DNA of 64,000 bases from Roseibium sp. Sym1 (lineage in GTDB: Bacteria; Pseudomonadota; Alphaproteobacteria; Rhizobiales; Stappiaceae). Below are positions 38,384 through 41,295 of this stretch, one piece after another; the first letter of the stretch is position 1, and every line of letters begins with the position of its first letter. Under the pieces are notes generated by a model. It saw nothing but the letters and a program-made list of their open reading frames with translations, was not told where the DNA came from and ran no database searches. A program made the position numbers and the translations under genes. The stretch lies in assembly GCF_027359675.1 (NCBI RefSeq), contig NZ_CP114786.1:2640501-2704500 (forward strand), given 5' to 3'.

Positions 38384-38484
38384 TCCTGTTCACAAGGGCG
38401 GGGCAGGGCTTTTGACTTTCGTCCGGATTATGGAAATGACATAAAGTGTGACAGCTTGCCCTCTAACCTTGGGTTGAGGTGATT

Positions 38485-39855
38485 ATGTCGGTCCATATCT
38501 ATCAAGCCATCTGGGACGGGGACGACCACAGGTTCACGGTCAGCGCCCGCGCTGCGAACGGCGACTGGCACGCGCCCGACGCGGATATCCTTCTCGACGA
38601 GCAGGTCAGGGCAAAAGGCTCGCGGCAGATCGACCTTGCGACCAGCCCGCTTTTCGCCAGCGTCGATTTCGACAAGATGGATGCCAGCGACCTCTACCGC
38701 TCCTTCATCCGTCTGCTCGACAATTTTGCCGTCCATTTCCGCGATCCGGAAACCATTTCCCCGGCCGAAGAGGACGAGATCGAGCGGTTTCTCGACCTTG
38801 TCATTGCCAGCAGGCCGATGCAGATCGCCTTCGCGCATATCTCCAGCGAACTGGTCCGCGACATGACGGTTGAGACCTTCCGCGCGGATCTGCGCCGGAT
38901 GTGGTTCGAGGTCTACACAAACTTCTTTCGAGGCAAGTCGACCCATTTCTGCACCGGGTTCGAGCATGTTTTCGTCGGCGAGGGCAAATACAAGAAAGGC
39001 GGCAATGCCGCGGCTGAGAAAGGCGAAATCTCCGGGTATCATTCCTGGGTCAAGTTTGCTCTCGACGAGCTCAACAACCGGGTCGACTATCTCGGCTACA
39101 AATACGATCTCGGGGGTCCGGGTCCGGACAATCCCCACGTCGTCACCCTGCAGATGGTGTGGAACCACCAGGACATGTCGGGCGAGCTGATCGCCGAGAT
39201 GTTCAAGAGCAAGGGCGGCTTCTTTGTCGGCAGCAGCCCGGCCTGCGAATTCGCGCTGGGGACGCTCGCCTTCTACGAGGGCCTGCACGGTCTGCTCAGC
39301 AACCAGCGCAAGCGGGTGCAACTGGGTGAGGGCAAGTTCGATCTGGTGATGTATCACGAAACCACCGTTGACGGCGCACTTGGCCCGCACATTCGCTCCT
39401 TCTATCCGGTCTATCTGGGTGACGGCAGCAGCAGTACCATCGACACCGGCACCGTCATTGTCCGGCCGGTCGATATCGACCTGCAGAATGACGGTCCGCT
39501 GCGTATCCTGTCCGCCCTGCCCAATCCGGTCGGTGACGACCAGGGCACCGAATGGGTGGACATCTGGAATGCCGGTGCGGTCGATGTCGAGCTGGCGGGT
39601 CATGAACTGCGCGACAAGATGGGCCGGCCGCAGCCGATTGGCGCAGGTGTGCTGGCCGTGGGGGAAACCCTGCGGGTTTCCGTAACACGGGCAACGGTCA
39701 ACCACATGCAGATGTCCAACCGGAAAGGGCTGATCACGCTGCATGACGCGGCCGGCGAGATGCTCGCCTCGGTTTCCTATGGCCGCGCCGAAGAGAACCT
39801 GGTCCTGACCTTTGCCGAACGGGATGGCTCGACCTCAGACGCGGATGGTGACTAG
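38485..39855 (+). CDS. EndoU (XendoU)-family endoribonuclease fused to a lamin-tail-like domain
   Basis: A 456-residue protein without a signal peptide. Residues 60-310 match the eukaryotic-type XendoU endoribonuclease: LYRSFIRLLDNF, ERFLDLVIASRPM, the signature FEHVFVGEGKY with His161, then GYHSW with His186, and a lysine at 241 or 243 before FFVGSSPACEFA. XendoU uses two histidines and a lysine to cut RNA at uridines with a 2',3'-cyclic phosphate. Residues 339-456 look like a lamin-tail domain (ILSALPNP, EWVDIWN, LRDKMGRPQPI). The stop codon TAG is the left end of a palindromic repeat. Prokaryotic EndoU of this class is uncommon. The substrate and cellular role are unknown. The ATG at 38485 follows TTGAGGTGATT. 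Confidence 0.8.
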   Translation: MSVHIYQAIWDGDDHRFTVSARAANGDWHAPDADILLDEQVRAKGSRQIDLATSPLFASVDFDKMDASDLYRSFIRLLDNFAVHFRDPETISPAEEDEIERFLDLVIASRPMQIAFAHISSELVRDMTVETFRADLRRMWFEVYTNFFRGKSTHFCTGFEHVFVGEGKYKKGGNAAAEKGEISGYHSWVKFALDELNNRVDYLGYKYDLGGPGPDNPHVVTLQMVWNHQDMSGELIAEMFKSKGGFFVGSSPACEFALGTLAFYEGLHGLLSNQRKRVQLGEGKFDLVMYHETTVDGALGPHIRSFYPVYLGDGSSSTIDTGTVIVRPVDIDLQNDGPLRILSALPNPVGDDQGTEWVDIWNAGAVDVELAGHELRDKMGRPQPIGAGVLAVGETLRVSVTRATVNHMQMSNRKGLITLHDAAGEMLASVSYGRAEENLVLTFAERDGSTSDADGD

Positions 39856-40154
39856 AGCATTTTCCGATCAATAAGGGTCATTTGACCGAGACGGTTTGGC
39901 GCGCTGGCTAGGCGGGTCACGCGCGGTGGTGTTTCCCACCACAAGGGTGGGCCAACGACGCCGGTGCGCCAAACTGTCCGGCCTATTTTCAATTGTTTCT
40001 CATACGCATTCGGGCTGTTGCGGGTGAGTGTATCCGGCCCATCGGCAGCGTTGCACCGCTTGCCCGATGCACCGCATCGCGCTTCGCGACGCGCCTTGCC
40101 GACTGAACCGGATACACTCATCAAATGATCCTTATTGATCGGAAAACGCTCTAG
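39852..40154. repeat. 303-bp nested palindromic element with 34-bp terminal inverted repeats
   Basis: The ends at 39852-39885 and 40121-40154 are inverted copies matching at 32 of 34 positions; the outermost bases are CTAGAGC. Inside, ACGGTTTGGCGCGCTGG (39891-39907) pairs with CCGGTGCGCCAAACTGT (39961-39977) using three G-U pairs, and TGAGTGTATCCGG (40025-40037) pairs perfectly with CCGGATACACTCA (40108-40120). Smaller hairpins, such as GTGGTG/CACCAC and TCGCG/CGCGA, fill the loops. No transposase and no convincing coding frame are present. It resembles a MITE or composite extragenic palindrome. Its left tip overlaps and supplies the TAG stop of the EndoU gene, and it lies between that gene and the ctrA terminator. 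No target-site duplication is obvious. Confidence 0.85.
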
Positions 40155-40184
40155 CACGCCTGAAAAACCGGTCACAAAAATGAA

Positions 40185-40211
40185 AAAAGCCCCGGCGCTG
40201 CCGGGGCTTTT
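40185..40211 (-). terminator. Rho-independent terminator of ctrA (bidirectional)
   Basis: Stem AAAAGCCCCGGC (40185-40196) / GCCGGGGCTTTT (40200-40211) with a GCT loop. The minus strand continues into TTTTTTCA, ending ctrA; a T-run also lies on the plus strand. Confidence 0.92.
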
Positions 40212-40231
40212 GTCTTTACGAGGCCGGCCGG

Positions 40232-40924
40232 TCAGGCTGCGGCTTCGGCTTCCGGTTCGCGCAGCACGTAGCCGCGGCCCCAGACGGTTTCGATATAGTT
40301 CTTGCCGGAGGTCGCCGCTGCCAGCTTCTTGCGCAGCTTGCAGATGAAGACGTCGATGATCTTCAGTTCCGGCTCGTCCATGCCGCCATAAAGGTGGTTC
40401 AGGAACATTTCCTTGGTGAGCGTGGTGCCCTTGCGCAGCGAGAGCAGCTCCAGCATCTGGTATTCCTTGCCGGTCAGATGGACACGCTGGCCGCCGACTT
40501 CGACGGTCTTGGTATCCAGGTTGACCTTCAGGTCGCCGGTGACGATCACCGACTGTGCATGGCCCTTCGAGCGGCGGACGATCGCATGAATGCGGGCGAC
40601 CAGTTCGTCCTTGTGGAACGGCTTGGTCATATAGTCGTCAGCGCCGAAGCCGAGGCCGCGCACCTTGTCTTCAATGCCCGCGTTACCGGAAAGGATCAGG
40701 ATCGGTGTCTTGACCTTTGAAACGCGAAGCGTCCGGAGAACCTCGTAGCCGGACATGTCCGGCAGGTTCAAATCCAACATGATGATGTCGTAGTCGTACA
40801 GCTTGCCGAGGTCGATGCCTTCCTCGCCAAGATCTGTCGTGTAGACGTTGAAGTTCTCGGACTTCAGCATCAACTCGATGCTCTGCGCCGTGGCGCTATC
40901 ATCCTCAATCAACAATACACGCAT
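40232..40924 (-). CDS. ctrA: Cell-cycle response regulator CtrA
   Basis: CtrA is the OmpR-type master regulator of the alphaproteobacterial cell cycle, flagella and chemotaxis. The 230-residue protein begins [20 protein letters not shown]. The phosphoacceptor is Asp51 in [13 protein letters not shown]. The winged-helix DNA-binding domain includes [18 protein letters not shown] and [11 protein letters not shown], nearly invariant in CtrA. The C-terminal two alanines after EAEA resemble the ClpXP degradation tail of Caulobacter CtrA. The frame extends 13 codons upstream, but this ATG gives the exact family start. A terminator follows at 40211. ChpT, which phosphorylates it, is encoded at 30.5 kb. 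Confidence 0.97.
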
Positions 40925-41295
40925 GCCAATCCCCTTGTTCTGCCTTTCCTGGGCAAGTCGCAACGGCTCTGTCGGTGCCTGCTACGAAGGACTGAGTTAA
41001 CCCCGACTCAAAGCTATCGGTTAATGGTTAACAAATTCTGATTCGTAACGGCAAGCTTCGTAGAGAGGAAACTGTGAACAACAGACAACTTGTTGAATCC
41101 CCAGAAAAAAAGACGATTCACAAATCTTAATGTTGAACTTTAAGAAACGGGTCTAACCGATTCCGTTCAGATTCCTTTCAACAAAGCCGTTTTGACTTCG
41201 AAATGGCTCTCGCTTGTCAGCCTTCCAAAGGTTAAGATTAACCAGAGTCGTAAACGAACAGTTACCGAATCCGTTAACGGGGGAAGGAAATTTAC
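40925..41295. promoter_or_regulatory. Divergent ctrA-fliI control region with eight GANTC sites
   Basis: This 371-base gap is unusually AT-rich for the window. It holds eight GANTC sequences, at 41005, 41040, 41095, 41115, 41159, 41170, 41245 and 41267. GANTC is the CcrM methylation site; chance would give about one or two. TTAA-type CtrA-like half sites are also abundant: TTAA-N7-TCAA at 40997-41011, TTAATGGTTAAC at 41021-41032, TCTTAA-N9-TTAAGA at 41125-41145, and GTTAAGATTAAC at 41231-41242. CtrA's classical site is TTAA-N7-TTAA, so only the first has the right spacing. The block plausibly ties ctrA and fliI transcription to replication and CtrA level. Confidence 0.7.

Follow-up and report, generated by a model that had tools for sequence, protein, structure and literature searches.

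The palindromic sequence at the 3' end of an XendoU-family (EndoU) gene of Roseibium sp. Sym1 is best read as one copy of a widespread MITE-like family. It is probably a non-autonomous mobile DNA element that has the form of an inverted dimer, inserts into YTAR, and spares the stop codons that it enters; it would be moved in trans, and it may be recognized by its fold. The window analyzed here is a stretch of 64,000 nucleotides (NZ_CP114786.1, positions 2,640,501 to 2,704,500), and the coordinates below are those of the window. The features discussed are the following.

39853..40153, plus strand: complete element including the TA on each side, 301 bp; its edges are common to 12 copies in the Sym1 genome
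39855-40151: element proper, GAGC...GCTC, 297 bp
39853..39854: TA on the left of the element, from the target duplication; together with the first G of the element it forms the TAG stop of EndoU
39855..39885, plus strand: left terminal inverted repeat, with a GAGC tip, a middle that varies while keeping its pairs, and a conserved inner TCATTTGA at 39878-39885
39886..39981, minus strand: arm 1, related to arm 2 in inverted orientation; model R1 matches it at 39875-39984 on the minus strand (E 1.1e-8)
39982..40024: central spacer, the least conserved part (54% mean column identity)
40025..40120, plus strand: arm 2, a covarying stem with an apical part of 91% mean column identity; it is the basis of model R1, which matches at 40022-40131
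40121..40151, minus strand: right terminal inverted repeat, with a conserved TCAAATGA at 40121-40128
40152..40153: right TA of the target duplication, followed by G at 40154
38479..39855, plus strand: gene of the XendoU family whose C-terminal part resembles a lamin tail (LTD, at a score under the Pfam cut-off); the insertion lies at the TAG stop of the gene
40179..40217: bidirectional hairpin resembling an intrinsic terminator, located outside the element, between EndoU and its convergent neighbor
40232..40963, minus strand: convergent response-regulator gene (Pfam Response_reg and Trans_reg_C), presumably CtrA

The proposed element consists of a terminal repeat and a hairpin arm, a short center, and then a second hairpin arm and terminal repeat, an arrangement that could form a cloverleaf on either strand. 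It would enter YTAR sites, most of them CTAG, and duplicate the TA. The first base of the element, next to the TA, is G; a TAA or TAG stop whose TA is the target thus becomes or stays TAG, and the host gene retains both stop and length. CTAG sites are rare inside coding sequence and common at stops, which is why copies accumulate at the ends of genes. Movement would be effected in trans by a DDE transposase that we take to be of the IS5 type. The arms and the junction may be kept because folded DNA, as either a cruciform or a single strand, is recognized by the machinery, and the combination of a variable middle of the terminal repeat with conserved arms and junction suggests such recognition. 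Any effect on the EndoU mRNA would be a by-product.

A fold that is kept through double changes offers a testable case of a transposition system that recognizes folded DNA. G after TA is also a simple rule by which a mobile element can use stop codons as harmless landing sites. Among the matches listed from open-licence literature, the titles and the starts of the abstracts yielded no description of the element, and the terms 'rhizob', 'alphaproteobacteria' and 'stop codon' do not occur in the main text of a 2024 review of MITEs (PMC10969869).

Anatomy, copies and target site

The element had been described, in a reading made from the sequence only, as a 303-bp nested palindrome with 34-bp inverted ends and further inner stems, and this description is borne out. 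The 34-nt ends (39852-39885 and 40121-40154) are complementary at 32 of 34 positions (94%), and nested stems were found again at 39890-39908/39960-39978 (19 nt, 84%) and at 40025-40037/40108-40120 (13 nt, 100%). The outermost C and G of that palindrome are target bases and lie outside the element proper. The minimum energy of the window copy is -174.2 kcal/mol for the plus strand and -168.6 kcal/mol for the minus strand (z values of -12.4 and -11.9), and 0 of 100 shuffles fold as well on either strand. Comparison of the element with its own reverse complement gives a match along the full length, as in an inverted dimer; the model built from arm 2 also picks up arm 1, on the opposite strand, and the single window copy yields three matches to model R1. 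A conserved mini-stem, GGCC...GGGTG, flanks the central spacer, and the spacer is mostly absent from variants of ∼267 bp.

A minus-strand open reading frame for 107 amino acids spans the element (39852-40175). Its frame is free of stops in just 3 of the 12 copies in the Sym1 genome, and hence the earlier statement that the element contains no gene stands; the reading frame is probably spurious, and a coding element was rejected. A known RNA family was likewise rejected, given that the four Rfam matches at E ≤ 1 between 39500 and 40400 are all far below the gathering score and all lie downstream of the element.

A BLASTN count of copies had been proposed as a check on whether the palindrome is a repeat. 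In the 7.26-Mb Sym1 genome, blastn gives 54 matches, 12 of which are full-length copies (301-303 bp as matched) that are 71-100% identical to the window copy. The others are partial copies, self-matches of the terminal repeat, and arms of a second family. The palindrome is, therefore, a dispersed repeat and not a single copy. Within the genus, 29 of the 41 genomes searched carry a match at E ≤ 0.01, many of these being partial. A profile search of the collected loci, from which nine duplicates had been removed, gives 51 distinct full-length copies; all are from genus genomes or Roseibium/Labrenzia records except L073, which is from a Hyphomicrobiales MAG. The structural alignment holds 44 of the 51 copies, with seven left out.

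Similarity across copies ends at common edges, TA/GAGC...GCTC/TA. Of the 51 copies, 38 have an intact TA on each side, and the G after the TA is invariant in the 44 aligned copies. The next outer bases are C..G in 34 of 51 copies, T..A in 6, T..G in 5, C..A in 4, A..G in 1, and C..C in 1. The outer bases of the two sides go together, as they would in a palindromic target. This target is YTAR, mostly CTAG, with TA duplicated. For the window copy, the G after the right TA (40154) suggests that the original insertion site was CTAG.

Empty sites were found at all four insertions examined, where relatives are without the element. These include both relatives that hold the EndoU gene, six of six for purD, six of six for a GGDEF-EAL gene, and five of six for a PAS-GGDEF gene; in the sixth relative for the last insertion (G022), the right flank alone was matched. 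The element is short, has no transposase gene, and carries terminal inverted repeats, a target-site duplication and empty sites in relatives. Its copies, common ends, TA at both edges and empty sites thus support the early suggestion that it is MITE-like. In one decayed copy (L062, at about 4227.5 kb of G000:C1), the left terminal repeat leads into a short perfect hairpin where arm 1 would be expected.

Conservation of the fold

A structure of 66 pairs was predicted from both strands for the 44 aligned copies, and 95.1% of its cells are paired. In a slid control the value is 34-43%, although the structure was derived from the same sequences, such that the control leans in its favor. A double change is present in some copy for 51 of the 66 pairs. 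Double-change cells number 559, versus 163 in shuffles, and 0 of 500 shuffles reach as high a count. The outer stem is 94.4% paired. Mean column identity is 68% in the long stems, 79 and 91% in the apical arms, 89-92% in the junctions, and 54% in the spacer. Pairing is kept, therefore, through changes on both sides of the stems.

The main rival to recognition of folded DNA is slow self-correction of the palindrome, by which template switching from arm to arm, and not selection on the fold, would keep the stems. The pairing is mostly Watson–Crick and strand-neutral, which is what copying of one arm from the other would produce. However, near-identical copies differ mostly on one side only: among copies at least 95% identical, 5 of 60 differences are two-sided, whereas 76% are two-sided between copies less than 75% identical. 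This pattern indicates that pairing is restored over time, and any correction must be slow. Moreover, the apical loops and the junctions, which are outside the protection of such a process, are more conserved than the stems. Self-correction is thus a possible explanation, and a doubtful one; recognition of the folded DNA by the transposition machinery would account for the conserved arms and junctions.

Insertion at stop codons

The first bases of the palindrome, CTAGAGC, had been noted to include the stop of the preceding gene, and TAG at 39853-39855 is indeed the stop of the XendoU gene. The same arrangement, in which the edge TA and the G of the element form the stop codon of a flanking gene, is present in 8 of the 12 Sym1 copies and in 25 of 51 overall, so that insertion at the end of the gene, as first proposed for EndoU, is frequent across the family. 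Gene ends were called by a codon-usage script trained on 264 kb of the Sym1 genome, and the null was drawn from the same source. Of the seven Sym1 genes other than EndoU that end at an element edge, six are supported by Pfam (HD, GGDEF-EAL, response regulator-EAL, PurD, PAS-GGDEF, and CLC channel); the seventh encodes a 111-aa product with no Pfam match.

The stops are native, because relatives that lack the element have stops there and because excision from EndoU leaves an in-frame TAG. For purD, the relatives stop at the exact codon hit in four of six cases and two codons earlier in the other two. For the GGDEF-EAL gene (L006, a better-conserved insertion), all six relatives stop at the exact codon hit, and the right flank, TA/A, indicates that a former TAA stop is now TAG. 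The tails of the relatives of the PAS-GGDEF gene fail codon-by-codon alignment.

Whether stops are occupied more often than expected depends on the null that is chosen. In the 264 kb, CTAG is present 16 times at stops, 28 times in intergenic sequence and 21 times in genes. Null cuts were treated in the same way as the copies, and the non-genic fraction at stops is 13/35 for CTAG, 5/99 for TTAA, and 12/100 for mixed YTAR. With copies weighted by target type, 25 of 51 at stops compares with 14.3 expected (P = 6e-4), and 8 of 12 in the Sym1 genome with 3.2 expected (P = 0.003). These values favor the idea that the element homes to stop codons by recognizing gene ends, beyond its preference for CTAG. 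Of the 18 TA-type copies from other genera, 12 lie next to a called stop; the value for TNA-type copies is 6 of 15, both counts being made under other thresholds and with no matched null. At two of the TA-type loci (L141 and L143), convergent genes both seem to end at the two edges of the element; one insertion event, in a CTAG common to the two genes, may have restored the stop of each.

The excess is weak, however, if every site is taken as CTAG (25 of 51 versus 18.9 expected, P = 0.055; 8 versus 4.5 in the Sym1 genome, P = 0.037), and this null is fair if the odd flanks are decayed CTAG. It is also weak if intact CTAG copies alone are counted (17/34 versus 13/35 in the null, P = 0.086). Selection against insertions in promoters would add to the excess, and the copies are linked by descent and hence not independent (L064 and L069 apparently occupy one site). 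Active homing to stop codons is therefore unlikely, and CTAG targeting together with purifying selection is enough to explain the excess.

It had also been suggested that the repeat could protect or stop the EndoU mRNA. Under this explanation, the element would be mainly a regulatory or protective RNA, with a hairpin in the 3' end of the mRNA that stabilizes, processes or terminates the transcript, and its structure would be conserved as RNA. The very strong fold and the 25 of 51 copies that abut a called stop are consistent with such a role, and NEMIS MITEs have been proposed to act on mRNA via RNase III (as described in part of PMC2229807). However, both strands fold about equally well, and the eight Sym1 copies at stops lie in both orientations relative to the gene (five and three). 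Rfam gives nothing above its gathering score, and its few weaker matches are downstream of the element. In addition, the terminator hairpin is still present, beginning 25 bases downstream of the element, and a similar hairpin is found in the element-free genome G040.

For a functional RNA, a clear excess of G-U pairs on one strand is expected. In the strand-neutral covarying pairs, G-U cells are roughly as numerous as A-C cells (43 versus 38), which suggests that pairing is kept as DNA and not as the RNA of one strand; the union of both folds gives 261 G-U versus 295 A-C. In a wider set of 77 elements, counted with rows L053B and L058B in the correct orientation, the common pairs give 132 versus 119, and the union of both folds gives 495 versus 372, which leans to the plus strand and to an RNA role. 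A strand-specific RNA structure was rejected because the strand-neutral pairs give no G-U preference in either set. The sequence-only reading had held that G-U pairs favor folding of the plus-strand RNA, which is true of the window copy and not clearly true of the strand-neutral pairs of the family. Altogether, a main function as RNA appears quite improbable.

EndoU is present in 3 of 45 genus genomes including Sym1, and the response-regulator gene adjoins it in all three; a search for EndoU relatives in the named genomes found none. Comparison with relatives that lack the element, another check that had been proposed, shows that the orthologues in G040 and G034 carry native stops 5 and 4 codons earlier (TAG in G040 and TGA in G034), with tails too variable for codon-by-codon alignment. 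When the element and one TA are deleted from the window, EndoU still ends in GAC TAG, with the frame unchanged. The proposal that the insertion made the EndoU stop and reset the C terminus, to which the coincidence of stop and element and the tail that exceeds those of the two orthologues by 4-5 residues would lend support, can be set aside as extremely improbable, given the TAG that persists on removal, the nearby stops of the orthologues, and the relatives that stop at the codon hit in purD (4/6) and the GGDEF-EAL gene (6/6).

Spread, related systems and candidate transposases

Relatives of the element occur across the class. Model R1, built on arm 2, has matches at E ≤ 1e-4 in 59 of the 397 order genomes, distributed over 38 of 141 genera with the own genus included; in the class it matches 35 of 385 genomes, with the Sym1 genome included. 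In these scans 9 candidates were scored per genome, and the best E value is weaker than 1e-8 in 11 of the 59 and 9 of the 35. Of the listed genomes, 12 represent other genera within the family, and none of these has a match. Fuller scoring gave 37 matches in Sym1, 106 in G205, 84 in G123, 63 in G068, 30 in G084, 14 each in G189 and G375, 10 in G343, 9 in G088 and 3 in G251; these are matches and not elements, since one element can give several. From other genera, 23 complete elements of 259-302 bp have the same plan. A search of 72,556 plasmids with the window copy gave a partial match in a single record, from Thalassospira marina, and two of three relatives of the element that were tried gave a partial match in Agrobacterium sp. 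MA01. One exact 23-mer gave 0 matches in viral contigs.

Two types of end are found. The first, TA/G..., reads TAGAGC and, at the class level, also TAGCGC, TAGCCC or TAGCAC; a script found a terminal inverted pair at 22 of 29 class-level loci, a few of which have ends of unclear type. The second is TNA/TACCAA...TTGGTA/TNA, and the two flanking TNA agree in 10 of 15 copies, a count that excludes L095 and L057, each of which is without one intact end. A TNA-type family is present in the Sym1 genome as well (L053-L058 and L094-L099), with elements of about 263 bp, ends ATACCAACC...GGTTGGTAT, and the same interior plan. Ten copies with both ends were found among these 12 loci; four compared copies are 98-99% identical, and a fifth is 83-84% identical. 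The profile used in the analyses of the open reading frame, GANTC and class-level ends, of the reverse complement, and of the first G205 ends was built with L053B and L058B reversed.

We tentatively consider that these elements could form a class-wide superfamily of cloverleaf DNA elements, in which the folded interior, with its two inverted arms and conserved junction, is recognized, ends are interchangeable, transposases are borrowed, and stops serve as safe harbors. If this were true, then one set of ends would give TA duplications in CTAG or TTAA and the other would give TNA duplications, and both would enter stops harmlessly.

Several known repeats resemble the element. RIME1, RIME2 and the ABC mosaic elements are palindromic intergenic repeats of Rhizobiales, a description that the element shares. 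By the entries in Table 1 of PMC2229807, the TA-target MITEs ERIC/IRU, RUP and Correia/NEMIS share with it a small size, the lack of genes, terminal repeats, a terminal TA, and stable stem-loops. Compared by these entries alone, they are ∼100-200 bp long whereas the element is 260-303 bp, and they differ from it in that the element is a two-arm inverted dimer with an outer stem whose pairing is kept despite changes in the stems. CIR, the Caulobacter/Brucella intergenic repeats, are described in part of the same paper (PMC2229807) as two long hairpin arms with a linker, GANTC at the loop, and no end-to-end stem. The element is likewise alphaproteobacterial and has two long arms and a linker; unlike that description of CIR, it has the paired outer stem, and GANTC is found neither in the window copy nor in 33 of 51 copies. 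A copy of QMITE2 of Coxiella at the 3' end of enhC also bears on the stop of a protein; as outlined in part of PMC5896051, that insertion extends the protein in one strain, whereas insertion of the element rebuilds the stop in place, and does so recurrently.

The partner type proposed for RUP, IS630 (PF13358), has no match at E ≤ 1e-5 in the Sym1 genome, and an IS630 partner was rejected for the element. IS711 of Brucella, which we take to be a member of the IS5 family, carries a transposase, and the element does not. The target rule of the two is the same, in that IS711 (IS6501) targets YTAR and duplicates the TA according to PMC2266754. Bru-RS palindromes are reported hot spots for its insertion. 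A DUF4096-type IS with TA on both sides lies inside the right terminal repeat of a TNA-type copy (L160/L057, about 433-435 kb of G000:C1). This arrangement resembles the reported preference of IS711 for Bru-RS palindromes.

The duplications of the element, TA in YTAR and TNA, are the pattern expected of an IS5-driven MITE; both fit transposases of the IS5 type (IS427/IS1031-type). The middle of the terminal repeat varies widely, which is unusual for an end that is recognized by sequence. A search for an autonomous partner in the Sym1 genome, made with the end of the main subfamily and not that of the L010-L012 subfamily, gave 26 sites and no pair at the distance of an IS. In the genus, none was seen among the end sites listed, which do not include those of the Sym1 genome. 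The Sym1 genome has five PF13340 matches; the IS at L160 has ends unlike those of the element, and no element-type pair of ends was seen at the other loci searched (L161-L163). Two remnants of DUF4096 transposases, each with one in-frame stop, lie at 87-91 kb of G000:C3 (L163 and L164).

In ∼292 kb of the copy-rich genome G205, which hold 31 element matches, no IS with element ends was found at up to 4 mismatches to G205's own ends. The five best leftover end sites there are single ends or a 40-bp hairpin made of ends only, with no IS. One 40-bp hairpin, near 5600 of L206, appears perfect and consists of the element ends alone, CTAGAGC...GCTCTAG, with no arms. Near 8548 of L205 and 2440 of L213, a different repeat that starts with TAGAGCGCATTCCGAAAAGTGGGAACCGGT shares the TAGAGC end, and it may use the transposition system of the element.
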